From Pomacea canaliculata (Eukaryota > Mollusca > Gastropoda > Architaenioglossa > Ampullariidae), in the NCBI RefSeq assembly GCF_003073045.1, contig NC_037593.1, positions 14,144,735-14,208,734 on the forward strand: DNA of 64,000 nucleotides. The letters are read 5' to 3'. Every line of letters begins with the position of its first letter. The first letter of the stretch is position 1. The notes beneath the pieces are model-generated. The model worked only from the letters and a program-made list of their open reading frames with translations. It was not told the origin of the DNA and did no database searches. Positions 13,097-49,300 of this stretch are shown here, piece after piece. The position numbers and the translations under genes were made by a program.

Positions 13097-14819
13097 ATGA
13101 ACTCGTCCTCAATGTTCGACTGTGTCAGTGAGGACGAGAGGGTGGATGTCAATCAGGTCATATCCTACGTCGCCTCCAAGTCCTCCGCCTGGCTGAACGC
13201 CAGCAACTGTTCCCTACCTCCCGGGGTCAACTCGCTGGCTGACCTGCGTGACTCCGGGGGCAAGCCGGCTGTCTTCGTGGTCGGCCGTCTCTTCTACGGA
13301 TGGTTACACCCATGGTCCTGCTGGTCGGCCTCATCGGCAACACTCTGTCTCTCTGCGTCTTCGTCTCCAGGAACATGAGGTCCCTCTCGGCTTCCACATA
13401 CTTGGCGGCCCTCTCCACCGCTGACCTTACAGCCCTCGTCTTCTACGTGCTGGTGGAGTGGCTCATCCGGGGACTGCCAGGCATTGCAAGGGGAGGAAGA
13501 AGACAATACCAGCCTGATGGCCACTAATGGGTCGTGCCAGATGGTGATGTACTTGCATTACGTGTCAAGGTTCCTCTCCGCATGGATCGTGGTGGCCTTC
13601 ACCGTCGAAAGGTAGACTGCCAGCTGACTTGATTTATAATATATAATATATTTACTATAATTATATATAATATATAATTAATATAATATATTTATAATAT
13701 AATTTCCCTTTAAGCTTCCCAGAGTATTTCTAACCCTATATTGTGTATGTTTGATTTCCAGGTACATCGGCGTCTGTCATCCGCTCCGGCGCCGCGACAT
13801 CTGCACGACGTCGTCGACGCGGCGCCTGGTGGTGGGGCTGATCGTGGTGTCGTTCCTGGTCAACGTGTACAAGCCGCTGTTGTCGCAGGTGCATCACGTG
13901 CCAGGTGTGGGCATGCTGTGCACCTCCCACCAGGACCACCGCTTCCTAACCTTCGTGCTGGACTCCACCTACGCGGTGATGATCACGTTTGTTCCCTTCG
14001 TCATCATCACCGTCTTCAACCTGCTCATCATCCGCAAGCTCTTACGTCACAACAGGAAACGTCGCAAGGTAGAGATCACATGACCTGTACTGCAGTGCAC
14101 GTGCTTTGTGTGAGGGTGTGGACAGAGAAAAATCGAGAGAGAACGAGTGAACGTAAAAAATGTGTTTGCAGGAATATCTGGAATATCTTGACATACTGAA
14201 GGATGTCATGGTGGGCAGGTAGAAGGATAAAAAAATAATAATAATGAGTAACGAACAGTGAATGATTAGTCTGCGCTTTCGTTTGTTTTGTTGTTAAGCA
14301 AACAATAGAAGGCGGGTGGTGTCAGAAGATAAACAAAAGTAACGAACGCCCACTTTAAATGACTGTTATTGTGTCTCGTTCACGGTTCAAAAGCAGGTGC
14401 GCGTGGTGACAGAGGAAAGCGTCATCCGCCTGGAGTTCACCCTCATCCTCCTCGTCGTTAGCTTCTGCTTCATCGCCCTCAACGTCCCGTACTTCGCCAC
14501 GTGGCTCAAGGTGTTCCTGGCGTCGCACTACATCAGCGTCTCCTCCTTCGCGCGGCCCGCCGACCTCGACTACTTCCGGGGCGTGGCCCTCATCACGCGC
14601 GCCATCTTCTACGTCAACTACTGCATCAACTTCTTCCTGTACTCCATCACGGGGGCCTACTTCCGGCGCGAGCTGCGCATGCTGTTCGTGCTGCGGCAGC
14701 AGAAATACAAGTACGGATCGCAGAAAACCCGCTGCACCCGGCTGGCCTCGTCCAGCACCTCCCAGCTCGCCCGCCCGCCCAGTCAGCAGTCGACTCCTAG
14801 CCCCCAGTCCTGGGTCTAG
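13097..14819 (+). CDS. Class A (rhodopsin-like) peptide-type G-protein-coupled receptor
   Basis: This is a seven-transmembrane plasma-membrane receptor that should signal through heterotrimeric G proteins; the ligand is unknown. Exons are 13097-13611, 13762-14068 and 14397-14819, with GT-AG introns and compatible phases, giving about 414 codons. The N-terminus has glycosylation sequons (NSS, NAS, NCS). Helix 1 holds GN (GLIGNTLSL) and helix 2 holds LSTADL. Helix 3 ends ERYIGV (a DRY variant) across the first intron. Helix 6 has CFIALNVP and helix 7 has NFFLY in place of NPxxY. A basic third loop (RKLLRHNRKRRK) and a Ser/Thr-rich tail are present. The INFFLYS-TG pattern resembles protostome FMRFamide-receptor-like proteins, but subtype is uncertain. 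Exon 1 carries two frame slips, near 13295 and 13490, that cancel. Read literally the frame stops at 13378. A splice acceptor sits at 13095-13096, so the start may follow a 5' UTR intron. Confidence 0.85.
13612..13761 (+). other. GPCR intron 1 with TA-rich tract
   Basis: The intron begins GTAGAC, ends TTTCCAG, and splits the Arg codon of the ERY motif. It contains a dense TATAATATA tract at about 13636-13705, unlike the GC-rich flanking exons. Confidence 0.75.
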
Positions 14820-23595: not shown

Positions 23596-26048
23596 ATGAA
23601 TATGCCAAGAAATGCTTTGTCATGGATGGTGGTTGTCATGTGTGTTCTCTGCCTAATGGCCTCTGTCTTCATCTACGGTAAGCTGACTTTTCTTTCTCTC
23701 TCCCTCTCGATGCCCAACTCTGTTTCTGCGTCTTTCTGTCTTATTCTATTGCGGTCTCTTGTGTCTTACACTAAATTGTCTTCTCTTCTCTCTACAACTG
23801 TTTAGTGTGTATAGACGTTTCTTTGGACATTGACAACCAGCAACATGATGATGACGATGATGTCTTCTTGCAGTACAGCACTATATACTCTCGACACCAA
23901 CTAAACATCATTTCCCGCGAGACACAGTTCCGAAGTGCACTTCCCCAGCAGACCTCAAGGTAAGCAAGGCCAGCACGCCTTCCATGCTGAGATCAGGGCG
24001 AGAGGACAATGCAACTGCAACAACGGTTGACTGTTCCCCCCACATGGTGACCAACGGAAGCTACAGTCAACCACAACAACCGCAGCACACACAGGTAGCT
24101 CCACACAAATTCATCCACGAAACATTCCGGAAAATAAAGTCCAGTGGAGGACGGTTTCGTGTAGGCCGTGCAGACAAGCCAGGAGACGATGGATGGTTCT
24201 GGAGTCTGCTGACGTCACCACCTCCTACTGATGTACCCCGTGTTTCACCGAGCATGCTCAAAGCACGGGGTCAGAAGGTCATACTGCTGACCTACGTCCG
24301 CAGTGGGTCGAGTCTAACAGCGGACATCATTGACCACAGCTCGGATGTGTACTACGTCTTCGAGCCTCTCTATAAGCTTGCAGACTACGCGAAGCACGTG
24401 AAGAACTGGTGAGACGATAAACTAATCAAATGTAAACAAATAGCAAAGGCTCACACGGAAAATGCGGCAGTTGGATAAAGGGATTACAAAACATTAGGAG
24501 ATATTTCTTCCATTTCCCTCAGATTCTTGTTTTTGTTTTCGTTGAGAACGAATAGTTTAATCGTTTTTATTTTGTAGAAATGAGGGCTAACTCCTGTTTT
24601 TAAACCAATTTTAGGATTGGAGAATGACTGACGTACAATATTTTCTATCCTATGGACACAAAAATTACATAATCACATGACACCGGCTAACAGGTAGGTC
24701 AATTGTCAGGAAAATATTCTCCTTGTTCCTCCATCTCAATGATGTTTGTATTGCAATCGCAAAATACTTAGACTAAGGTTTCGCTATTTACTTTAAGCTC
24801 TGTCAATACCATTCTACTGGACAGGATACAAAATTTTAGACGAGAACGAGCGATGCCTGTACGTTGGTCAGGTGATCCTGCGTCATCTCCTGTCCTGTGA
24901 CGTCACTCAGCTAGTTGGCGCGTTGTACGAAAACTTTCTTGTACGGAACAAAGAAACCTCGCTAATGGCTCGGTGGGGTGCCATCTTTTTTTCTGCTTTT
25001 TTCTATTCGTCTTTTCTACTATCTTCTTGTTGTTTTCCTTATTTTCTTTCATTCATTTAGTCGTTCATTTTTTATTCAGTAATTTGATCCAAAAATAGTG
25101 ACCCCGATGTATCGTTATATCGGAAATATATAGACCCAAGCACGATGAATAGACAAAGTAATCAAAGGTTCTTCTGTTTCTGATACTTTGAAAAACCATT
25201 ATTCCTTTCATTCTTTTTATTATTTTTTAGGTCTTTCATTTAGTTGTCAAGAGTGCAGCGATACAGTTATTCTTTTTTTCGTCATTTAGATGTCAAAAAT
25301 TTGCCAGCAACTACCCATTCGCTGCAAAGAGTTGCCTTGCCGCAGCGGAGTCAACCTGCAGGTCACATGACACGATTTTGCTGAAGGTCGTTCGGCTTCC
25401 GGTTAGCGGCTTGCAGCCTCTTCTAACCTCGCACCCCGAGTTGAAAATCATCTACCTCGTTCGCGACCCTCGGGCAGCCCTGTGGTCCCGAATCAACGTC
25501 CTCAAGCAGCCACAAAGAGAAACTTTAAAAATTTCGCCCGAGACCTGTGTCTGCGCATGCGTGACGACGCATTAAACGCCCTGTTCCTGCTCAATGCCTC
25601 ATCACAGCGCATCCGGTTCCTGCGCTACGAGGACCTGGCAGCGGACCCCTTGCCGACCTCTGAGCACATCTACCAGTTTCTGAACCTGACGTGGACCGAG
25701 CACATCCAGCATCTCGTGCTCAGGCAAACCAATTTCTCGGCAGGGGGCGCGCAACGGGGATGTGCCCCCCGGCGAACTTTGACACCCGGAAAGGGAGGCC
25801 ACCTGCTACCGTTCACTGTCGTTCGAGCAAGTTCGGAAGCAGCTGCGAGAGCATGGAGAAAGACGATCCCGTGGGACATTGTAGAGGGCGTGCAGGCAGT
25901 CTGTGACCCCGTGATGAGCTTGCTGGGTTACGCCCCTTTGCGGACGCTAGATGAGGTTCGGAATGACACACTGCCGTGCATGGTGAATTTTAAGATGTTG
26001 CACTCCTATAGAACTCTACACCCTGACTTGGGGAGCAGAGATAAATAA
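23596..26048 (+). CDS. Golgi carbohydrate sulfotransferase (CHST1/3-like family)
   Basis: The protein is a predicted type II membrane enzyme that transfers sulfate from PAPS to a hydroxyl of a glycan in the Golgi lumen; the acceptor sugar cannot be told. Exon 1 (23596-23677) encodes a short cytoplasmic tail and a signal anchor (WMVVVMCVLCLMASVFIY). Exon 2 (23874-24408) has a stem with NAT and NGS sequons and then the 5'-phosphosulfate loop TYVRSGSSLTADII with VFEPLYKL. Exon 3 (about 24825-24972) encodes YKILDENERC. Exon 4 (25290-26048) has the 3'-phosphate motif YLVRDPRAALWSR, RFLRYEDLAADP and AWRKTIPWDIV near the end. The exon 2/3 junction is one base out of phase with the only good acceptor, and exon 4 shifts frame between VLKQPQRE and NFARDLC near 25515-25530. 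Conservation on both sides suggests assembly indels or a recent pseudogene. A frame-preserving optional intron (23960-24094) is possible in exon 2. An AATAAA overlaps the stop. Confidence 0.85.
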
Positions 26049-27335: not shown

Positions 27336-27508
27336 CTAGCAGCATTGTTTGGAGCAACATGATTTCTTTGGTGCCGCAGCACTCTCTGCGATAAAAGGAT
27401 CGACTTTCTGAAAATAGAAAAAAGGAGATCGTGGTGTGTATTTTGAGTGCCCCGTGAGGTCAAGGCAACGCGGTAGAAAATGATGATGATGATGATGATG
27501 ATGATTAT

Positions 27509-27567
<59 letters not shown>

Positions 27568-30500
27568 TTATTTTGTTCCCGTTACAAGGTATACTGATAT
27601 GTTTATATGTTAAGTGTATGTGTACGCACAGAGAAAGGGGACAGAGAGAGAGAGAAACTGTGACATCGAGAATTTTCCATAAAAATTGCAGTTGAAAACT
27701 ATGAGAATTTCTAAGAATTATATTTTGCAAGAATGTGATCTCGGCGAAAAGGGGATCGTTGAATTTTATTTAATCGTTTATTCTGCTCATCAAAATTTAC
27801 AATATTTCAATTTGTAGTCAAGGGTTGAATTTCTGGTCATGATTTTATGTGAATAAACACCTCCTTGTGCGGTTGTCCGTTTTTATCTCTCTCTACCTTC
27901 TAATTTGTTTTCTCTTTCACGTATTCATACTATGGTGGCCAATAGAAGAGAAAATGATTCCCCCCACCCAAAACACAAACAAACAAACAAACAACAGGCG
28001 CGAAGCTCCATTATAAGACCTACGGGATCCTTTGTTTCCGGAGTGGCATCTGGTGCATCGGTGATGCTGAAGTACTGTTTGAAGCGTGAAGTCTTCAGAA
28101 TGGAAGCCAGCTCGGAATCCACCACTTTCTCTTCATCTTTCTGCACACAAAACCTCCAAATCATTAACTAAATGCGGAGCCAGATGACAGAAACCATAGC
28201 CCAGTAACTACTCGGTGGTTCGGAAATGAGACCAACTCTTTTGGGTGAGTGGGGAGGGAAACTTATATTTGTGAGTGAAGTACTCATCTCTTCTCCACTG
28301 CAGCATTACCTTCCCCTACCCTCTAATGAGTCAGGGGCCCATTACACAGCTGGCTCCACTTCATGACTGGGGTGAGAGGTTGGAGGACAGGAGTATGCTG
28401 TGTTACATTGAACTCCATCCAATTTGTGGACTCCTACTTATAATTTACAATCATTCGGCGATCTGCTTTCCAAGACCGGTTAGTCTTCCACTCTTCCAAA
28501 TCATTCCGGTATTTCCTTCCCCGAACTATTTGTCTATCTGCTTCCCAAAGTCATTATCACATTCAAAGAGTTGAATACTTGAGACGATGCAAAATATTCT
28601 CAAGTTGCTTTAGCTTTGTGTGTTCTGTCTCTCTACTGAGTGTTTCTTGTCTCTTCTTTCTTTTTCCCCTCTCTAACCCTCCTCTAGTTTGATTAATGTA
28701 AAAGGTCTTTAGCAAAACCAAAACTAAGCCAACGAGAGTTATATCCCTTGATGAGAATATATCTGGACATGGAGAAGTCTGTGACACACAGAAAACAGTT
28801 GCAGGTGCGTGTAAGTACACTGCTTTACAAAATCCGTCTATAGACGAGTGTGGTCTTGAAAATGTTGAAAGTACTCTGCCTTGAACAGCGTATTGTAGTC
28901 GAACACCACGGAGTCCGGGGATCCGATGATACCCCCGGTGTAAGACACACGACAAGGGTTGCTTGCTCCTTGTGCTGGCAGTTTGAACAACCTGTACGTC
29001 ACTGATGTGAACCTCGCCGAGCCTGAAAACACGCATGCAAACACATGAGTACATGCATTTTACGATTGTCTATACCTTTAGACATGCCACAGTAGAGTTT
29101 AAACTCGGTCTTACCAGAGAAAAATATTAGGTTACCCACGACTTGTTAGACTGCTAATATTTTTGTCAACTTCAAAACTCGAAACAAAACACAGAACACA
29201 TTACTATGACATGACATTTGACCTCAACAGGACACGTGATGCCATCAGCTCACCAAGCTTGTCGCCGTACATGCTGGTGTCTGCGAGTTTGGCTGTCACA
29301 AGTCGTGGAGAGCTGAAGCCGATCTCTGCTGCCAGTTGGTACAGCTCCTTCCACAGCAAGGCCCCGGAGAAACATTCGCCTGAACTCATCCAGAATCACC
29401 GGCGTTATTACTAACAAACACCACTTTTCTTTCTAGTATTCAGCGATTTGTCTACTTTTTCGAACAGAATTATTCATCTAGGAAAGATGGCTGGAGTTGT
29501 GTGTTAATGTGGACGTGTGTGCATGTAAAGTCTCACAATCACTGTAACATTTACAACCCCTTATAACAGTGTTTTATGAAGCGGATACAATCATGATTCT
29601 AAATACCTACCAGATAAAACTAAAGTCTGTTCACGCTTTTACTCAAAAGAATAGACAAAGGACTTTACCCCATAGAAACTGATCTTTTCTGGCCTCCTCG
29701 GACAGTACAGTGTCGGTGTAGATGTCACTGAAGTAAAATTCGCCGCCTTCCTGGAAAAAAGTACAAATATTACTTATAAAAGGAGGGAGAAACGAAGAAC
29801 AACTGCAAACAAACTTAAACATCAAAGTGATGCACAATTTAACGTATTTTACTATGATTTACCAACAATGCAATTGGCTAAGAGTTTCTTATTGTCATGG
29901 CTATGTCTGTCGACTAGGATATGATGTAGGTGTGATTTCGCGCTATACAGGCTTTGCATTGGTGGAGGCGATGTTGTTGTCGCTGCTAGATTATTAACTA
30001 TCTCCACACGACTTGTAGCCTCAACACCACATGACCTTAACGTGACACGTGACCCCGACACGACACATCACCTCAACATGACACCTGTTCCTTCCTATTC
30101 TCATCGCCTTTCTCGCAATCACATTTTTGCGTAAGTCATTGATAACAAAACCTGAGTGAAATTCTTTTTTCTGTCTTTTTTTGCTCGAAAACAAAGCCAG
30201 TCTGATTCTTGCTCATCTATTGCTGCTATTAGTAGACCAGTGAGGTCCGACTACTTCACCGCTCCACCAACGTACCTTCAATACTCGAAACGCTTCCCTC
30301 AGGGTGGACTTTTTATCCGGGGAGAGGTTAATCACACAGTTGGAGCTGAAACACAGAATTTTACATGTTAGCATATGTTACATGTTAGCAATAAATAAGC
30401 ATACTTTGTGTCAGGTTTTGCTGTTTTTCTTGTTTGTGGCTTTTGTGTGTGTGGGAAGGGGGTCTGTTGTTTTGTGTGGGCTGGTTGGGGTCGGCTTATT

Positions 30501-32636
30501 GCTTAATTTTACATATTACTTATTTCATTTTAAATTTATTTTTAATTTAATTTTTTTTATTTGTGTTGCCTCATGGAGATATTACAACAATGAGATACAA
30601 ATGGAACAACTGACAGAAAGACAGTCTGATTCAGGTGCAGCTGACCATTAACATCTCATGAGGGACAGACAGCAAGACAAATAAGTATAGGTGATCGTGA
30701 CAGACAGACAGACAAACTTACAGATCAATAGATAACGTCTGGACGAAATATACTGAGCTGTTTCATTTGAGAATTTTGTAAACTTGAGGTTTGATGGTCA
30801 CAACAAGAATATGGAAATTTAAAGATAGGGTCAGAGTTATCATTTTATTTAAAAAATTACTCGTTTTTGAGAACTAGAGACAGTGCCACCTGAGGACCCA
30901 AACGTGTTCTAATTTAAAATAAGTTTACGTGATCGTTGGCGAACGTAGTAGTATCGCCGTACTATGTGTCTCCCGTGTCACTACTGTCTCTCTATTGTGA
31001 TCGTGGCATCTCTTGTGTCATTATCTCTCGTCCTGTTCTCTCCTTCATTTCTTTTGTCCCTCCCGTCCCACTCCTGCCAACTGTGCTAACAGTAACAACA
31101 AGTGTCCGCCATTTACCCTCCTGTACAGTGACGTAAGCAGTCACGTGACTTACATGATGAGGTCAAAGCTTCCCTCCTTCAGCCCAGCCTCTCCCAGCTT
31201 TTCGATGTAACCAAAGACAAACTCCACGTTTGGTTGGCTGTAGCCAAACTTCTGAGTGTGGTAGTCGATGTAGGTCTTCGCACAGTTCAGCTTGACAGAG
31301 AAGCAAACAATATGCTCATCTTGGATCGCAGAAATGAAATGATGATATAACATCATTTTGCATATTTATTATCAATCCCTAAATGAACGGGCACTTCTAT
31401 TCTCTTGTTGTTTGGGCTACTAAGAGACTTAGGGTCTTGTTTTATTCGGCATCCTCTGACCGAATTTATTATTTTTGTTTGTATTGTATTCTGTGATTTC
31501 AAGTTTTAAAATTTAATTTATTTTTATTTTCCTTCCCATATAAATAACAACCTTCTCGTACAGTTATTATTATGATTATTTATATGAAATTTTTCACACA
31601 CTGTGAACCTTGTTGCGAAAAGAAAATTTCTTTTTGAACATTCGTATGTTCAGTATAATAGTATTATTATTGTTGTTGCTATAAATATCGCTGTTACAGA
31701 TATTTTCTGCATCAAAATCAGTCTGGGCTTTTACAGCAGCTTCAGACAAAATTTACTGCACACGTTGCTGTTAGACTGAGACATGCAAACACCATTCTGA
31801 CAGCGTACCTGTTCTTCTGTCATGTCCACACCCACCACGCGACCTGACGGACCAACCAGCTTGCTCAACGCAAAGCAGTCCCGCCCACTGCCGCTGCCAA
31901 GGTCAAGGATGCTGCATCCCTCCACTGCTTCCGGTATTGCAGATCCACAGCCGTAGTACCTGTAAGGTAGTTTTTGAATATTCTAGATTTTCCTTTCTTC
32001 CAAGGGCACAGAAAAATGCAGTACGCTGACTTCGCCGATATTTCAAGAGTCATAAAGTCTACATCGTAAGATATATTTTCTTTATCATCTTCAGCGGCAT
32101 CCTCCAACATACCTGACAAAATGAGTTATCACCAAACTCTACGACAAGACTTCTTTTTATTCCCATAACATCAGCTTGTAAATAAACATTTTCCTTATCA
32201 ATAAAAATTTGTATATGTCTGCTACCAATTTCTTGTATGGAGTTTATTGTTCACACCCCAATTACCATTTCCATTCTTCTAGCTAAGTCTTACCTAATAC
32301 CAAACAAAATAAACGTTTTCTTTTTTACCCACAGACCAGTCCAAATGTAGTCTGGATATTTAAATGAGTGGATTGATTAAAAAATTAATAATTAATAAAA
32401 CACAAGAATGATTTGTTTGCGATTTCTATTTTCACTCACCTAAGAGTGACTTCCTCATGCACCTCGGCAAAGGCTTCTCGAACGTGCTTAGGAACTGACG
32501 GCGCGCATGTCAAAGTGTTGACACCTGAGATGACGCACTTTGATGTTTGGGAGTCTTTCCCATAGTGCTTCTTAACGGAGGAAATGACGTCATTTTCACC
32601 GCACACAGCGGAAGTATCCTTGGCGCAGGAGCACAT
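27336..32636 (-). CDS. AS3MT: Arsenite methyltransferase, left paralogue (all four key cysteines)
   Basis: The enzyme uses S-adenosylmethionine to methylate trivalent arsenic in the cytosol. Nine exons read leftwards: 32636-32440, 31959-31809, 31290-31154, 30345-30276, 29750-29669, 29379-29254, 29022-28880, 28140-28024 and 27407-27336. They give 364 codons, against 375 in human AS3MT, with all phases consistent. The SAM-binding loop is ILDLGSGSGRDC, followed by VVGVDMT. The four family cysteines are present: Cys34 (SKC), Cys70 (YYGCG), Cys165 (ISNCVINLSPDK) and Cys215 (LWGEC). GGEFYFSDIYTD and FSSPRLVTA are also conserved. The C-terminus is cysteine-rich (SCCSKQCC). Intron 7 begins GC (AAG then GCAGAG) instead of GT, although the exon length matches the paralogue exactly. 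A GAT microsatellite lies in intron 8. The gene is head to head with the second copy and looks intact. Confidence 0.93.
27479..27569. repeat. GAT microsatellite in AS3MT intron 8
   Basis: Nearly pure GAT/ATG triplets, about 29 units with one TTATT interruption near 27505, lie within the last intron of the left AS3MT. Frames across it give runs of aspartate, methionine, serine or isoleucine and are not genes. Confidence 0.95.
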
Positions 32637-36575: not shown

Positions 36576-39500
36576 ATGTCTTCCTGTGGAAATTCGCCAC
36601 AAGCGTCTTCTGACCTGGATGTTATAGAATCCATGAAGGACTACTACGGCAAAGAGGTCAGAACCAAAGACTCCTGCGCCACGGGGGTCACTACGCTGAC
36701 CTTCTCGCCTGAGGTTCGCAAGATCGTGCGCGAGGCCTTCGATGACGTACACGATGAGGTCACGGTCAGGTGAGCAACAACAACAACAGGGGAGACGAGC
36801 AGCCATTGTTACATAATAAAGCTATTAATGGAGTCAACAGATTATAAGCTTTTCACATGTCTAACAAAACTTTGACACTTAATTTACTCAAAGTTTTAGG
36901 CTTTACATAAGACCTGTAAGACAGGGAAAAGCTAACAGATATTGCGGTTATCGTGTCCTCAGATACTATGGCTGCGGGCCTGCAATACCGGAAGCGATAG
37001 AAGGATGTAGTATCCTTGACCTTGGCAGCGGCAGTGGGAGGGACTGCTTCGCGCTGAGCAAGCTGGTTGGTCCGTCAGGTCACGTGGTAGGTGTGGACAT
37101 GACACAAGAGCAGGTAATCTTCTGTGGTGATGTAGCTGTTTGCGTCAGGTTTTTATTTATTTATATATTTTTTTTGTAACCATTTCGTTTATTGTCTCTA
37201 TTTTTCACAAAGCATACATACAAAAATACATCTTTCTGTAAAAGAATTTTTCTCCATGTATTTTGTGACATTATCTCAGCAGCTTCATATTACGACTTTT
37301 GTCTAGCCACGTTCTAGTCAGCAATTTTTTCCACCCAAATAACTTTCAATCGTAAACCAGTTTTTTACACAGGTAATTACGAGAGAAAATCTCATTTTTC
37401 TTTGTTTTCGTATTCGCAATTTACAGCTGGAATTTGCAAGAGGTTACATCGACTATCACACTCAGAAGTTTGCTTACAGCCAGCCCAACGTGGAGTTTAT
37501 CTTTGGCTACATCGAAAAGCTCGTGGAGGCTGGTCTGCAACAAGGAAGTATCGACATCATCATGTAAGCAATGCAATGACATCAGTAGACTTGTAACATC
37601 ACAATAGCATGTCAGGAGAGGCATTTGGAGGTTTAACAGAAAGTAAAGCAGGAGTACAGAATCACATATGAGACTGTGACAAAAGTTCGACTCCTAAAAT
37701 AGGCCATGGACAGTGGGGATTAATTTCAATATTCTTTTTTTTTCTGGCTATATTTGTTGAAAGTATGTGGCATGAAGTGTCCAGAAATGTACCTCAAAAG
37801 ATAACTGCTCATCTGGTTCTTATGCAATTAAATCTTTATTGTAACATCCAGGTGTCAAACGTTGACACAGAATGAAATGACACCTAACAGTTTCATTACA
37901 AAAACGTTGGGTCAGTTTTAAGTAAAATTTCTATATTGCTGTCAGTCTATTCGTGTTTCTGAGATTCTTAGATATTTAATAAAATTCTGAGATATTTAAT
38001 AAAATTAGCGCTCGAACTTTTGTCACAGAGTAATATATTACTGGATTTTTTCCATCTCTGGACACCTATCAGTCTGTTCTTCTCTCTCGCTCTCTCTCGC
38101 TCTCACACACAGTTTAGCATCAGGGGAGACAACAGCAAGTAGGAGCAGCACTTGACCTCTACACTCTTTTTGTTTTGAGCCTGACACCAGGGGAAAACGA
38201 AAAAAAAAATAGAGAGAGCTGTCAATAAACATCGGCTGTTCAAACCATATCAGATAATTCTTTTTAACATTTACCTTCCTCGCTGCACAGCCTGGTTGGG
38301 ACAACTCTGGAGATGATGAAGACACGAAGGGCTTAAAATATCTATATATAAACAGTGTCTTTTATATATACAGTGTTTTATATTTACATACAGCATGGCT
38401 CTCTGTGACTGTCGTTGTTTGTTACAGTTCCAACTGTGTGATAAACCTCTCCCCTGACAAGCAGGCGGTGCTGAGGGAGGCGCACGCTGTCCTCAAGGTA
38501 CTGACTGTGGTGGCGCTGTTGAACTGTTTATGGTAAAGCGCCATCTAGCCAGAAGTGACCACAAATGATGTCAAGACTTCAGTAACAAAACTTTACCCAA
38601 AGGGTCCAACCCAAAGACAGACACACACACACTGACGCACAGATCGAGCGACGGGCGCCGCCTGTCGAGCCCTTGATGTGTGTAACATAAACTGAGTTGC
38701 TTCCCTTCCACTGCCTTGTGTCTTGAAAACCAGGGAAACGATCCCCGCATGTCGTTCAGAAAAAAAAAAAGTATACAAAAGATGTTTATGACAGGTCGCA
38801 TAGCGGACATTCTACAAGAAACCCCATAAAGAAATAATTCAACTATTTTTCGATTAATAGACCCGGATGTCAGCTATTTTTATCGGTTTTCAAAGTTTCC
38901 GTTATTTTTCTCTCTTCCGTTTAGTTAGAGGTGGTTGAAAGGGAGGAACAGATTATATAAAGTAGGGCAGTGTGTACCCTTTATTTTTGTTTGTTTTTCA
39001 GGACGGAGGGGAACTGTACTTTAGTGACATGTACACTGACACCAAGCAGACAGACGAGATGAAAAAGGATAAGGTCCTCTGGGGTATGCTTTTTCTCCCT
39101 TAATTATTTATTCCTTTCTCCTTTGGTCTTCCTGCTTGCAACTTTCTTCCATTCTTTTCCTCTCCATTTCCTTCCTTTTTTCATTCATTTTTTATATTTA
39201 AAATTGTTCCTTTTATTTGGATAGTTTTCTAATCAAATGGCTAGGACCAGTACTCAGGTGACAATAATGTAAACATTCAAGAAGTTCTTATATAATTGTC
39301 ATAGCTATACTATATTTATATCTCGTACTCATTTTAGAAATTAAAAGTTTGTATATTTTAATTGATTTTAAATGTCAGTGCATACAGATCTGTATAAATT
39401 TTGAATAAAATCTCTTATTAATATTTACTTTATTGCCGTACCTCTGCTTATACTGTATGCGGTTTGAAGGGGAGGGAATCGGAGGAGCCTTGTTGTGGGA

Positions 39501-41806
39501 CGAGCTGTACCAGCTGGCTGCTGAGATCGGCTTCAGCTCTCCACGTCTTGTCACAGCAAAGCCCGTAGATACCAGTCAGTTTAGTGACCGAATAGGTAAG
39601 CTTGCAGCCTTGCTTTAACACACTGATGTGAATTTAAAGACCTACCTAATGGTGAGTCAGATTATACTCAAAGGACTCCTTTCATATCTTTCATATCACC
39701 TATTAATGTCTCGAACACGAAATCGCAAGGAGAAACATGAATCTTAAAAAAAAATAATAATAATTAAGATTTCCTAACTTCTTCAAATCTCCATTTGGGC
39801 CCCGAGACGAGATATGAACACTAACTTTCTAACTGCATTGGTGGCAAGCGAGTGTTTTAACTACTAGAGTACCTTTCTTGTTCCATTCTCTCATTACTCC
39901 TACCCCCGAATCTTCTAGAAGATGCGCACCCTCTCCTAAACTTGATACTAGGCATCCCCCCAACCCCACCTGTCTCCCTTCGGGAAAACCACAGGTCACG
40001 GGGTCACCGGCCACCGGACACACCCCTGTATTGTGGTAGCCCTCGCGTGCGTGCGTGCGTGTTTAATTAGACACAGATCCACCCACCTCCCATCAGACCA
40101 GAAATTGAGATGGGGCTAAGGGATATTGAGAAGACTGGTGGGAGGCAGAGAGGGTCAGTTCTGACATCGATAATCTGTCGGTCAATTATGGACATGACAG
40201 AATGGGCATCGTCAGTGCCAGACAGCATGGCTGGCAGCAAAAATCTGATAACAACTGTCCACAAGCGATGTATTTACACGAGATGTAGACTGACTTTACA
40301 TGTGAAAGCTCTGGAGCCCCATAATATACAGTAGCGTGTGGTTGAATATCGCCACTCGAGCAGTTGGATTGAATTTAAATTGTGTTCACCCAGAGTGACC
40401 CTTTCTAACATGCGTTTGGGAGGAAATACGAGAGCTAGCTGAGAATGAATGATACACTAACAAACTTATAATCTTCATTCCATTCTTATGTTTTTAATAA
40501 TTGTGCCTATGTGTGGAAAAAACAAAAACACGATTCCTATCTTTGTTGTGTATGATGGAGGGTTGTCAGCCATACTACAGATATATGTTGTAATAACAAA
40601 CCATCAGACTTTGTGATGTAGTTAGTCGCTCACCACCCGTACTGTGTACAAGAGTCAGATGAAACACCTCCATAGCTGGTGTGTGTGTTTGTCTCAGGTT
40701 CAGCCAGGTACGTAGCTGTGACATACAGACTGTTCAAACTACCCGCACAAGGAGTAAGTGGACCTAGTCGTGTCTCCTACAAAGGTGATATTGCAGGTTG
40801 CCAGGAGCGGTTGAAACTTGACGACGTCACAGTATTTGAGGTAAATATTTAAAAGTACAGAAATTAAAAAGTATGAGATAGCACTAAAAGCAGACGAGAC
40901 ACCCCTTAAAGTATATGAGATACCCCGAAAAGTATAGAAACTCCTTTGTATGAAATGACCATCTTACTACGTGTTTGAGACTAGGAAGAGGCTGGAAATA
41001 TGTCCGCAAGTAGTGGATTTTTAGAGGAACGAAAGAAAAAATGCGAGTTTTTTAAAATAAAAAGAACTATTTTAAATCAATATCTTATGGATTACTTGAA
41101 AGTTTATTTCAAAGAATTAGTAGATGCTAAACACGGCTACCTCTAGGTAATATTTTTCCTGCTTAATACATTTGCTCGGTTTCATGCGCAGAAAAATGAA
41201 GAAAAGGTGGTGGATTCTGAGCTGGCGACCATTTTGACAACTTCCCGTTTCAAACAGTCCTTCAATATTACCAACGCCCCGGATGCAACTCCAGAAACGA
41301 AAGATCCGGTAGGTTACTCAATCTGAAAGCGTTTGTGAATTGTTCTCAGAAAGTGGACAGAGGGTCTGAGTGGGTGCAAGGGAGGACGGGAGGGTGTAAG
41401 AAAGGAGGAAGCTGAATGCTATTGTCACTAAACTACACACGAATACATGTTCACTCATTCAAAAAGTTGTGCGTTCCTAACTTTTGAACTAATTAAAGTA
41501 TCTTAGCTTAGCTTCACACTAATTAAGATAGCTGGAAATGAACACACGCTGGCTAGCTAATCTAAACACCCCTAATTCAACTATTTTACCATAACTTGAA
41601 GTTAGTTGAAGACTTTTAACTAAACTAAGCTGCACGCTAAATAGTGTTGACTGCAGGCAATGTGAATGGTGCACCAACGTGACGTAGTACGCTGTTAGCG
41701 CCGCTCGTTGATCCCAGGTGCGAATGGTATCAGATAATTAATGAATGGATGGGTTTTGAAGGCTGAAATTTACAGATTAGTTTTATATCGCCTATAACTA
41801 CTGATA

Positions 41807-41852
<46 letters not shown>

Positions 41853-42052
41853 GCAAACGTTCAGGTTGGTCTTTACCTAAACTGCACACTATCATAGCTA
41901 CAAAGCGATTGTTAAACAGTTTGCCTATCCCCAATGTTATCTCGACCTTTTTCTGAGCTGAATGTTTATCCCTATTTCAGAAGGTAAACCCGTTTGAGCT
42001 TCTTGACGAGCGGTGTGCCAAGCCCTGTGTGCAAGGAGCGTGCGCTCCATGA
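36576..42052 (+). CDS. AS3MT: Arsenite methyltransferase-like, right paralogue (fourth cysteine replaced)
   Basis: This second AS3MT-family, SAM-dependent methyltransferase is read rightwards. Exons are 36576-36769, 36963-37113, 37427-37563, 38428-38497, 39002-39083, 39470-39595, 40698-40840, 41192-41308 and 41981-42052, giving 363 codons. Exons 2 to 9 equal those of the left copy in length (151, 137, 70, 82, 126, 143, 117, 72); exon 1 is one codon shorter. The SAM motif ILDLGSGSGRDC, Cys34 (KDSC), Cys69 (YYGCG) and Cys164 (ISNCVINLSPDK) are kept. At the position of human Cys206 the sequence is LWGEG: Gly214 replaces cysteine, and the neighbouring residues also changed (IGGALLW against FSGALLW). 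The tail ends CAKPCVQGACAP rather than in paired cysteines. All nine exons are open with canonical splice sites, so it looks expressed. Catalysis on arsenite may be weakened or altered; that is inference from the family mechanism. Confidence 0.92.
39798..39875 (-). repeat. tRNA-derived SINE-like head
   Basis: On the minus strand, TAGTAGTTAAAACACTCGC resembles a Pol III A box and GTTAGTGTTCATATCTCG resembles a B box at tRNA-like spacing. It lies inside intron 6 of the right AS3MT. The body and tail limits of the SINE are unclear. Confidence 0.45.
41644..41874 (+). repeat. Dispersed repeat, copy B, with expanded poly-A run
   Basis: It is the same-orientation relative of 33471-33670. It starts GTGTTGACTGCAGGCAATG and ends GGTTGGTCTTTA. 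Where copy A has a few A residues, this copy has an A run of about 40 bases at 41812-41851. It lies in intron 8 of the right AS3MT. The left AS3MT lacks it there, so it moved independently of the gene duplication. Confidence 0.8.
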
Positions 42053-42515: not shown

Positions 42516-43580
42516 TTAGAGGGGAATCCACCCAGGGTAGATGTAGTCACTGGGATCTGAAAATTCTTTCGAAAAATTCAACCCGGGAACAAAAAAGTTC
42601 TTCATGTATACCTTCAACCCGGTGTTGAAAAAGCCCGCCCACCACCCAAATGTCCCCACAGTGATGATCATGTGGTCCATCAAGGCCAAGATCTGCATAT
42701 CGACGGCTGGCTCGTGCATGTTGAGAAAGATGACGTCACTAGAGTTGTCCTGCGTGCGAAGACTGTGGCGACACCAGTCCAGGTCATCGCTGGCCAGAAC
42801 GAACGTCAGGGGCGAGAACCTGCGCCGGAAGTACGTCATACTGTTATGGAGGTACTCGGCAGATGCTGCCATCCGTCCGACCTCGGGTTCGTTGTGGTCC
42901 GTTCTGCGCACGTGTACTCCGACTAGTGTCCTGCCGGGTAGCTTCCGCCTCACACCCTGCACGAAGCGCTCGGCCTTGAGCAGGATCCAGTCTTTGAACC
43001 GTAGCGCCAACCTCACTTCCTGTTCCACACTTCTGAAGTACTTCCACGATTGCAAGTAGCCGTTGACATTGACGTCCAGTAGCTGATTGAGGTACAGCAA
43101 CCGGCTGTCAAAAGCGCCATCCTTCTGGTTGCGGATGATGACAGTGCTACGACAGTGTGACCGGAAAAGGACCTCGTTCTCGTAGACAGGGGGGTTGAGG
43201 AGTATTTCCTGGAGTATTCCCAACTTGTCGTCGAAGTAGAAGCTCATGTTGTTGGCGTGGGCAAGCCCCAGTACGGCAGCGTACTGAAAGAGGACGTTGC
43301 CTAGGCGACCCATTAAGTCGTGACAAATTATCTTTTTGGAAGCCGTTGATTTGTGGATTTGAGTCCACGTCACCAACGATTGGTTCCGGATCCGATTCAT
43401 TTCGTCTGGCGAGAGGGACATCATGAAAATATCCGAATTGTCCATGAAAAACCCTTTGAAGAAAACACACAAGGACAATATGATGACAATGGCTCCTAGA
43501 ACTGAAAAAAAAGAAAACAGATTTGTATATTTTGCTACCTTCCCTCCCTCTTTCAAAACCCAAGTACAGATGGCATTCAA
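42516..43580 (-). CDS. Galactoside alpha-1,2-fucosyltransferase-like (GT11)
   Basis: This predicted Golgi type II membrane enzyme transfers fucose from GDP-fucose in alpha-1,2 linkage to a glycan. It is one 354-codon open exon. A hydrophobic anchor spans about residues 22-45. Motifs in order are GRLGNVLFQYAAVLG (91-105), a region I recognise from GT11 enzymes, then the GDP-fucose motif VGVHVRRTDH (220-229), FVLASDDLDWC (260-270), and IITVGTFGWWAGFF (305-318). It ends IYPGWIPL. The length is typical of FUT1/FUT2-like proteins. A T-rich tract ending in CAG (acceptor-like, exon from 43501) lies inside the frame at residue 27, just inside the anchor. The first 26 residues may therefore be intron, with the true start in an upstream exon not found. 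It is tail to tail with the right AS3MT. The exact acceptor is unknown, and members are numerous in molluscs. Confidence 0.88.
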   Translation of the reverse strand: MNAICTWVLKEGGKVAKYTNLFSFFSVLGAIVIILSLCVFFKGFFMDNSDIFMMSLSPDEMNRIRNQSLVTWTQIHKSTASKKIICHDLMGRLGNVLFQYAAVLGLAHANNMSFYFDDKLGILQEILLNPPVYENEVLFRSHCRSTVIIRNQKDGAFDSRLLYLNQLLDVNVNGYLQSWKYFRSVEQEVRLALRFKDWILLKAERFVQGVRRKLPGRTLVGVHVRRTDHNEPEVGRMAASAEYLHNSMTYFRRRFSPLTFVLASDDLDWCRHSLRTQDNSSDVIFLNMHEPAVDMQILALMDHMIITVGTFGWWAGFFNTGLKVYMKNFFVPGLNFSKEFSDPSDYIYPGWIPL

Positions 43581-43855
43581 GCTTAGCGAACAAACAGAAA
43601 GCGCAGCTTTCAGAAAAGCAAGTAAAGAAGACTTCGACTAAGATTTTTTGCATCAGAAGAATAAACACAAGTTCGTATCAGGCTGTTTGTTAACCACATA
43701 ACACGATTCCACTGAGATTGTTCTTTCCTTGTCGTCTCTCTCAATCACAACGAGTTGTCAATGTCGAGTTGACGACTCATTTTAATCGGCGTGGTCGATA
43801 TTATCGGGGGTTTTATTTTTGAGGAGTGGGGGTAGTTTCAGTCTAATCCATTTCC

Positions 43856-46318: not shown

Positions 46319-49300
46319 TCAATCTGTCCATGTGAGACCAATAGTCTGGTACACAAAACTGTAGAAATCAACAATTTCTTCGATCTGCAAATGTTAAAAA
46401 AAAGGATGGATGTATGTTTAAATATGAAAACTTGTATCTGCTGGATTTCTTCTGACTTCTATATTAGTAAGTAGCATTGTGTCAGAGGTAAAATCAATCT
46501 GAAGAGCACAAAACACTATGACTTACTTCTTTTTAAAATATGTATTAAAAGTCAATTTATAAAGCTTAAATGACACATACCCACACATATTTCTCTAAAA
46601 GGAAGAAATCAGAGATGTCTTACATTTCACCTTGTCTATTGTTCTAAATATTCTTACCACTTTGGAAGTTGGTTTTCCAGCACCATGACCTGATTTGGTA
46701 TCTACTCGAATCAGCAAAGGGTTTGTCTGGAAGTGAACAAAACTACCAATTTATTCATAATGTTTGTCCTTCACTTTTTCACTTTCTCTCTCTCTCTCTT
46801 ACACATTTATACTTACACATCCATAACAAAAAACATCCCTGTCTGAACTGTTTTATCTACCTCCAAGGATTACACGCCTGAACTTAAACGTCTATTTTAT
46901 GTGCTTGTAAGGATATTTTTGTGTTTCTGTGAATCTCTAAATCAATGGCTGCTGTAGCAAGTAATGATGTTCACCTGGCTCTCAGCCTCTCCTAAAACAT
47001 GCTGCAGCTGGGCTATGAATTTCAGCGAGTGAAGAGGCACAACTCTGTCATCATGGTCTCCAGTTAACAGCAAGATGGCAGGGTACTGTCCCCCCTTTGG
47101 TTCTTTTGGTATTGTGTGAAGAGGAGAATACCTTAAAATCGAGAGCAATACCTCTTAATGAAGACTAAAAAATTTCTCATATTATAAATATGAACAGCTT
47201 CTTCATTACTGAAATTGTTATTTTTGATGTTTATGAAAGAAGACTCTTTATTATCACAGACATGCAAACCCACTGTATGTTTCAGTACAATCATACAATA
47301 AGTTAAGCATACACAGAAAAAAGTAATACACGAACTTGCCAATAATCGTGTTTCACATTGGTCAAGAACACTTTAGAATTCTTATCTGCTTTAATAATTT
47401 TTATAAAGGTCAAGTACCATGAAAACAGAATTAAAGAATGATTCCAGTGAAATTCATTGTTTTATTTTAAATTTTCAAAAAAACCTCACAGACCACTAGG
47501 TTAGTCAGAAACCAGATCTCTCCCTAATAGCTTACTTGATAAGCCACTGAAACTGTTGTGGATCATCAGATGATCCATAGTCAGTGATCCAGGCATGTCC
47601 TATTGTGAACTTGTGGAAACGCAGCATATCCAGCACACTGTTGCCGTCAAAAATTTTAAAATAAGAGAGATTTATCAGATAAGAATAGAATAAAAGGCAA
47701 GCTACTGATGCAATTTTAAGAATACTCCAAGATTCAAGAATTTTTGTATTCCAAGTTTGTTTGTTTTTTTCCTTGGCATTAACTCTAGGCATTACTTGCG
47801 CTTGACTATAAAATAAGTAAAAAATGTGTTTTTAGGTGGTTATGGTGAAAATTTTTGGAAGGGATCAATTTTTTTTTAAATATACTATTTTTTCAAAATA
47901 TCTTGCAGACAGTACCCAAAATCATAGATCATTTATTTTAATATTTTTGTAGAATGCAAACTGTTATGTAAATTTTCAAGCACATTCATTTTGATATCTC
48001 TTTGAAAGTCTTGGAGAAAATGTGATCAAAGTAAGGACCCAATTAGGGGAAACTCCAGAAAGTAGAAGTTTTGGGATGCCATGGTCGAGTTTGAGATAGC
48101 TAATTTTGATTTTGATACTTTCACATAAAATACATATGGTTCAGATGCATTTTTGTTGAAAATTAGTGTTTTGATGTTAAATAAATTTTTCACAGTCCTT
48201 ACCAAATTAACTTAAAGGAATTAGAAAAACTTTTTCACCACACAAGCCATCACAGGAAACATATATTTAAGAAAACCATGCACATTTTTCCAGTTTTCTC
48301 ACTCCATGGAAATGAATCCAACTTTATAACTTATTCTTTTAGCTCTAAAGGCTGCACCTACCCTACTTGGAGCACACCAGCACCAAAAAGATCAGGGCGT
48401 TGGTTCAAACATGCACCAACTAAAAGTCCACCATTAGAACCCCCGTTTATGGTAATCCTGAAATAAAAAAAAAAAAATCACAAAAATAACATCTAAAAGA
48501 AAACATGTGAAAAGAGAAATAAATCCATTTACATTATGAAAGATATTCGCTTACGTAAATGAATGTCAAAGTGTCACAAATGTCTGCCATTATTTAGCGA
48601 TGCATGATTCTTGTTGAGAACATAAAGTACTTGTCAACTTACTTTTTGGCAGTTGTGTACTTGTTGGCAATCAGAAACTCAGCAGCTGACTGGAAATCAT
48701 TGAAGCAGTTTTGTTTCTTGTCTAGAGATCCATCTTTGTGCCATGTTTCACCATATTCACTGAAAAGACGTAACAAATTTTAAAGGGAGTAGGGATTGTT
48801 AACATCGGGAATGAAAATCCCTGGTTTTTATTTTTTTTATCTTGCATGCGCACACACACAAAGAGATGGAAACACAAATATCGATATATATGTTGCCATA
48901 TCATATCAAAAGAAGAATGAATGACAAAAGTCAAAACAAGAAAAATAAAAACAACTCACTTTCCTCCACGAATGTTCGCAACAACATAGACACCTCCCAA
49001 ATGCTGCAGAAAAACTGTGCGCGAAGGTGAGAAGGAAGGAGTTATTGAGATGCTAAATCCACCATAGCCATACAGTATCACAGGGTGACTTCCATCCAGG
49101 ACTAAACCCTGATTACACAGTGAGTACACATCCAGATTAGAAGTCTAACTACAGCATTAGTACATGTACAGACACAGTTGTCAAGGTGGCATTTTGTGTT
49201 TAATGAAGAAAGAATGTTTACTCCTGAAAAGCTATGGTTGTTTGACAGTAAGTGTGGCATGATTAAACTTTTGAAATAATTGTTTCACATATTGCAGAAA

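Follow-up and report, generated by a model that had tools for sequence, protein, structure and literature searches.

Human AS3MT is wholly inactive on arsenite and methylarsenite when either Cys156 or Cys206 is replaced by serine (C156S, C206S; with glutathione (GSH), tris(2-carboxyethyl)phosphine (TCEP) or dihydrolipoic acid (DHLA)), while C32S and C61S lose only the first methylation step (PMC3877260). Both steps depend on residues 174 and 224 in an algal enzyme (PMC7563989). Chen et al. (2017) state that the three arsenite-binding positions are conserved in their retrieved ArsM set, and kept for further analysis only the sequences with at least three of the four cysteines (PMC5552862). The Thermus enzyme TtArsM, evolutionarily distant from other known ArsM proteins, methylates As(III) with a single cysteine, and two histidines may stand in for the cysteines (a docking prediction, with mutants that are less resistant; PMC8649762). 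Here, we describe two AS3MT-like genes arranged head-to-head in Pomacea canaliculata, within a window (the whole stretch of DNA analysed, 64,000 nucleotides, C4:14144735-14208734) in which the right-hand gene (hereafter R) has glycine in place of the ligand cysteine equivalent to human Cys206, a residue that the left-hand gene (L) keeps. Outgroup comparison shows this loss to be derived and, by analogy with the human C206S mutant, R is probably no longer an arsenic-methylating enzyme.

The exon models of both genes were placed by hand from splice signals and homology. R comprises nine exons on the plus strand (36576-42052, 363 aa) and L nine exons on the minus strand (32636-27336, 364 aa), as follows:

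36576..36769, plus strand: R exon 1, with the start codon at 36576; the family Cys1 motif is replaced and the nearest cysteine is Cys34 (model and alignment)
36963..37113, plus strand: R exon 2, with the S-adenosylmethionine (SAM)-binding motif DLGSGSGRD and Cys69 (human Cys61)
37427..37563, plus strand: R exon 3 (gene model)
38428..38497, plus strand: R exon 4, with Cys164 (human Cys156)
39002..39083, plus strand: R exon 5, ending in ...LW-G
39470..39595, plus strand: R exon 6, reading LWGEG...
39475..39477, plus strand: Gly214 codon of R (GGA), corresponding to human AS3MT Cys206
40698..40840, plus strand: R exon 7; its codon at 40766 (Ser277) is Cys in the near-copy described below
41192..41308, plus strand: R exon 8 (gene model)
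41981..42052, plus strand: R exon 9 and stop codon (gene model)
32440..32636, minus strand: L exon 1 (gene model)
31809..31959, minus strand: L exon 2 (gene model)
31154..31290, minus strand: L exon 3 (gene model)
30276..30345, minus strand: L exon 4 (gene model)
29669..29750, minus strand: L exon 5 (gene model)
29254..29379, minus strand: L exon 6, reading LWGEC; Cys215 codon TGT at 29374-29372
28880..29022, minus strand: L exon 7; a GC donor follows
28024..28140, minus strand: L exon 8 (gene model)
27336..27407, minus strand: L exon 9 and stop codon, with C-terminal Cys pairs

The exon sizes of R (194, 151, 137, 70, 82, 126, 143, 117 and 72 nucleotides) recur in L save for exon 1 (197), the two proteins are 69% identical, and they cluster together in a tree (support 97/98) built with 24 of the 80 bacterial sequences and three of the four related genes on contig C2 introduced below (L093 was left out). 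The structure sequence 8xt7, which we take to be human AS3MT, is matched by R over residues 47-335 (phmmer, E 1.8e-93) with 53% identity in the aligned part, the same SAM shell and equivalents of Cys61 and Cys156; R differs from it in having Gly for Cys206 and no cysteine at the Cys1 column. The algal ArsM proteins 5evj and 4kw7 are 41% and 40% identical to R but keep cysteine at both the fourth site and the N-terminal column. TtArsM resembles R in having fewer arsenic-site cysteines than usual, although histidine replacements have been proposed for it and none is known for R. A two-cysteine ArsM, reportedly described by Huang et al. in 2018, would likewise have fewer arsenic-site cysteines than usual, as in R. 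Both snail proteins fall below the curated cut-off (263 bits) of NCBIfam NF008823 (R 159.3 bits, L 169.9 bits), a miss that we regard as weak evidence, since the model was made for prokaryote annotation and L misses too. The L model also shows an apparent GC donor (AAG/GCAGAG) at intron 7 (28879, minus strand).

The initial annotation had contrasted LWGEG in R exon 6 with LWGEC in L, and the exon, now delimited exactly (39470-39595), bears this out with GGA facing TGT. Exon 5 of R ends in CTC TGG G (followed by GTATGC) and exon 6 begins after TTTGAAG, giving L-W-G-E-G-I-G-G-A-L; at the same site L reads L-W-G-E-C (Cys215), and the passage from TGT to GGA takes at least two substitutions. The annotation had also named a different exon 6 acceptor as a way in which the cysteine might be restored, and none was found nearby when the sequence was read by eye: the alternative at +5 loses the frame, those at +15 and +18 stay in frame but lose residues, and the next AG upstream leads to a stop. 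Within the window, tblastn with the R and L proteins (E up to 1e-3) found no second exon 6. Beyond the window, the next contig has a near-copy of R (exons 1 and 4-9 at C4:14215173-14221172). It too carries GGA (at C4:14218581), which makes a base error at Gly214 unlikely; the occurrence of GGA on both contigs holds whether the near-copy is a haplotype or a tandem duplicate. Neither this substitution nor a study of Pomacea AS3MT was found in the titles and abstract openings of the open-access papers listed by our literature searches.

The column of Gly214 is occupied by cysteine in 80 of 80 bacterial relatives (the best 80 of 443 confirmed candidates, obtained with search patterns set at other motifs), the preceding Glu and the following Gly-Ala being invariant in the same sequences. 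Cysteine is also found there in 8xt7, 5evj and 4kw7, and thus the glycine is derived on the R branch. From the three arsenic-ligand cysteines (human 61, 156 and 206) R has two, as Cys69 aligns with Cys61 and Cys164 with Cys156, the third being Gly214. The first reading had counted Cys34, Cys69 and Cys164 as intact family cysteines; this stands for the latter two, while Cys34 sits off the Cys1 column (five residues upstream), where R has Thr39. The same column holds Asn40 in L (flanked by cysteines 34 and 44) and cysteine in 80/80 bacteria and both algal proteins. It is presumably that of human Cys32, which was placed indirectly, the 8xt7 chain being without its N-terminal part: its number puts it seven residues ahead of Val39 in VPKH, and its flanks (N-G-(C)-V-T-T) come from a published primer. 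This placement matches neither snail cysteine unless shifted. Hence, we treat the Cys1 mismatch as a caution and not as proof of loss, given the variability of this loop, in which a cysteine at a shifted position might still do the same work.

At codon 277 of R (40766-40768) the window has Ser and the near-copy Cys, the latter being usual (77/80 bacteria, 8xt7 and L). We considered whether R has lost conserved cysteines in a biased manner (Fisher P = 0.009, 0.006 and 0.13 at 90%, 95% and 100% conservation) and set the idea aside, because among the three lost Ser277 is Cys in the near-copy and another belongs to the C-terminus, where the alignment is poor.

Within the SAM shell (28 residues within 5 Å of SAM in a model of human AS3MT, hAS3MT; PMC3790734), R departs from the human protein at three positions (I101V, V161S and C206G). 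The first two are shared with L and common in bacteria, which leaves C206G as the only R-specific difference. The SAM loop had earlier been described as intact; judged from these 28 shell residues, the SAM-binding site of R is intact. The accompanying claim that the fourth cysteine is needed for methylation agrees with the human C206S mutant, inactive in both steps (PMC3877260). The pair needed in both steps, human Cys156/Cys206, is equivalent to algal 174/224, and R retains one of the two. Considering that R has the equivalents of Cys61 and Cys156 and is without that of Cys206, the simplest prediction is that it would not methylate arsenic, although the step from the human mutants to R goes by analogy, as these carry serine instead of glycine and the snail protein is not the human one.

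The near-copy belongs to a stretch of ~34 kb that is present twice in the assembly, in the window from just upstream of R onward (36065-64000) and at C4:14214676-14249261. A 100-N gap separates the two: the 33.6 kb leading up to it are colinear with the sequence that follows (in blocks of 85-97% identity), and the match stops only 75 bp and 133 bp short of the contig ends. Indel density peaks at 35 per kb where the second contig begins and at 91 per kb where the first one ends, and is 0-13 per kb in the bins of window kb 39-62. Mismatches range from 1.2 to 10% in 1-kb bins (5-7% for most of R), and two extra stretches, of ~0.5 and ~0.8 kb, occur on the second contig. The published P. canaliculata assembly (440 Mb, PacBio, heterozygosity 1-2%) was cleared of alternative contigs of less than 200 kb that could mostly be aligned (PMC6129957). 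With such a filter and such heterozygosity, the repeat is most naturally read as two haplotypes whose overlap was left unmerged, and the near-copy is most likely the second haplotype of R; we preferred this to a paralogue or pseudogene on account of the colinearity up to the contig ends and the abundance of indels at both of them. Against it stand the extra stretches and a mismatch above the published heterozygosity, and a true tandem duplication may still account for the repeat. As the ~34 kb stretch is present twice, gene counts within it may be inflated.

Nonsynonymous (dN) and synonymous (dS) divergence between R and L amount to 0.21 and 1.5-1.8 (the latter close to saturation; exons 1, 5 and 9 taken singly gave no dS value), with a dN/dS of 0.11-0.15 as the mean of both branches. 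The comparison of R with its near-copy covered exons 1 and 4-9 (264 codons, leaving out the indel-bearing exons 2 and 3 and intron-split codons, and beginning exon 5 one base into its damaged acceptor) and yielded 12 replacement and 11 silent differences (ratio 0.32-0.45). Exons 4, 5, 6 and 8 have none of the replacements and six of the silent differences (P = 0.00015 if neutral, assuming 77% nonsynonymous sites), exon 6 alone showing none and four; since the four exons were chosen after the table was seen, this P value is only descriptive. The constraint on the reading frame posited by the initial annotation is thus borne out by the R/L ratio and by these exons, and less evenly so by exons 1, 7 and 9, whose differences may partly be contig-end noise. 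Overall, the core of R seems to have been preserved, altered site included, with ends that are loose or noisy.

A faster evolution of R was considered, its branch being the longer (0.35 vs 0.21), but rejected, as its excess over L in relative-rate counts was not significant (22 vs 13 changes with the human outgroup, chi2 2.3; 14 vs 11 with the bacterial majority). Separately, R and L are unusually similar in exon 2 (36963-37113 and 31809-31959), where they differ at 3/23 fourfold sites vs 56/94 for the remaining exons (P = 5e-5). This pattern points to gene conversion between the two inverted genes or to DNA-level constraint.

We reason, with the balance tipping modestly in favour, that R is a retained AS3MT paralogue with a constrained SAM-binding core, for which we infer both the loss of arsenic methylation and the gain of another role. 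An old inverted (head-to-head) duplication of AS3MT would have produced R and L and, after the split from L, R would have exchanged the ligand cysteine equivalent to human Cys206 for glycine. It would still bind SAM yet have become unable to keep As(III) or methylarsenite in place for the transfer, and would methylate no arsenic; it may now methylate another small substrate or fill another SAM-dependent role, with L carrying the arsenic-methylating duty. The earlier expectation of weakened or altered arsenic chemistry, or of another role, is thereby supported in part, though, going by the human mutant, 'weakened' seems to understate the effect. The pair (69% identical, with one SAM-shell difference) offers a natural test of that cysteine's role and of whether AS3MT can gain a non-arsenic substrate.

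Several observations weigh against R as a retained paralogue with a non-arsenic role. Two ligands (Cys69 and Cys164) are still present, and L's full arsenite activity is not assured, because L is also without the canonical Cys1. The near-copy has frame-breaking indels in exons 2 and 3 and is one base short at the acceptor of exon 5 and four bases short in the acceptor tract of exon 6, so that a damaged allele is possible. Exons 1, 7 and 9 accumulate 12 replacement and five silent differences between the contigs, to which an uncounted Gly to Asp replacement in the intron-split codon at the exon 6/7 border is to be added.

The two intact ligands lend themselves to the view that R handles arsenic with Cys69, Cys164 and glutathione or another residue as third ligand, in an altered or slow chemistry for which the single-cysteine TtArsM offers a precedent (PMC8649762). 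We hold this to be unlikely, as no activity on inorganic (iAs) or monomethylated arsenic (MMA) is left in human C206S (PMC3877260) and R has only one member of the Cys156/Cys206 pair needed in both steps. The disrupted exons 2 and 3, the base gone at the exon 5 acceptor and the replacements in exons 1, 7 and 9 would fit a decaying duplicate, perhaps a segregating null allele that looks intact on one contig. The duplication is old (dS above 1), however, and yet on the first contig the frame of R is open and its splice sites are acceptable; exons 4, 5, 6 and 8 carry no replacement beside six silent differences, and the exon 2-3 damage sits in bins with 23-35 indels per kb, all of which renders decay quite unlikely. 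R could also be a pseudoenzyme that binds SAM or arsenic and acts as partner, sponge or sensor, as its kept SAM shell, single missing ligand and constrained core would allow; we rate this lower still. A sequencing or gene-model error might be suspected in a PacBio assembly with noisy contig ends, but with GGA on two contigs, and neither an alternative acceptor close by nor another exon 6 within the window to restore the cysteine, it is very improbable that the glycine is an artefact.

Searches of the whole genome (24 contigs, 440,159,624 bases) with R, L and a C2 protein as queries matched R and L on C4, R's near-copy and four loci of contig C2 (L091-L094, near 11.26-11.33 Mb), together with a weak further match on C2 at 30.01 Mb (E 0.008). 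The four loci form two opposite-strand pairs, and their six modelled core exons (151, 128, 70, 82, 126-133 and 143) are similar in size to those of R (151, 137, 70, 82, 126 and 143). Three are open across these exons and L093 has a frame break in exon 6; the best PDB match of L091 is 8xt7 (E 4.4e-52). Like R, they have Gly at the fourth-site column; unlike R, they have also lost the equivalents of Cys61 (YYG followed by S, S, A or T and then G) and Cys156 (SNG or SSG), so that cysteine occupies none of the three arsenic-ligand columns, although in L093 and L094 a cysteine one residue before the Cys206 column could be counted under another alignment. The three C2 genes in the tree make up a clade of their own (100/100) on a long branch (2.58), outside which R falls, clustering with L and keeping two ligands.

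The absence of the three ligands from the C2 genes means that ligand loss recurs in the AS3MT family of this genome. On alignment evidence, arsenic ligands have been lost in two separate parts of the family, and only one of the six family genes found (L) retains all three. Tentatively, and with the odds rather against it, AS3MT may have turned at least twice into non-arsenic methyltransferases within one snail genome, in R through its fourth cysteine and in the C2 cluster through the three ligands, with the SAM fold kept in both.

Among the neighbouring features in the window, an open single-exon frame (42516-43637, minus strand) lies tail to tail with R and matches glycosyl transferase family 11 (Pfam, E 1.5e-31). 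A sulfotransferase-like exon is found at 25407-26048 (plus strand) and a prolyl-oligopeptidase (Peptidase_S9) exon at 46942-47154 (minus strand), while two open frames at 13703-14819 (plus strand) resemble, by eye, parts of a rhodopsin-type G protein-coupled receptor.

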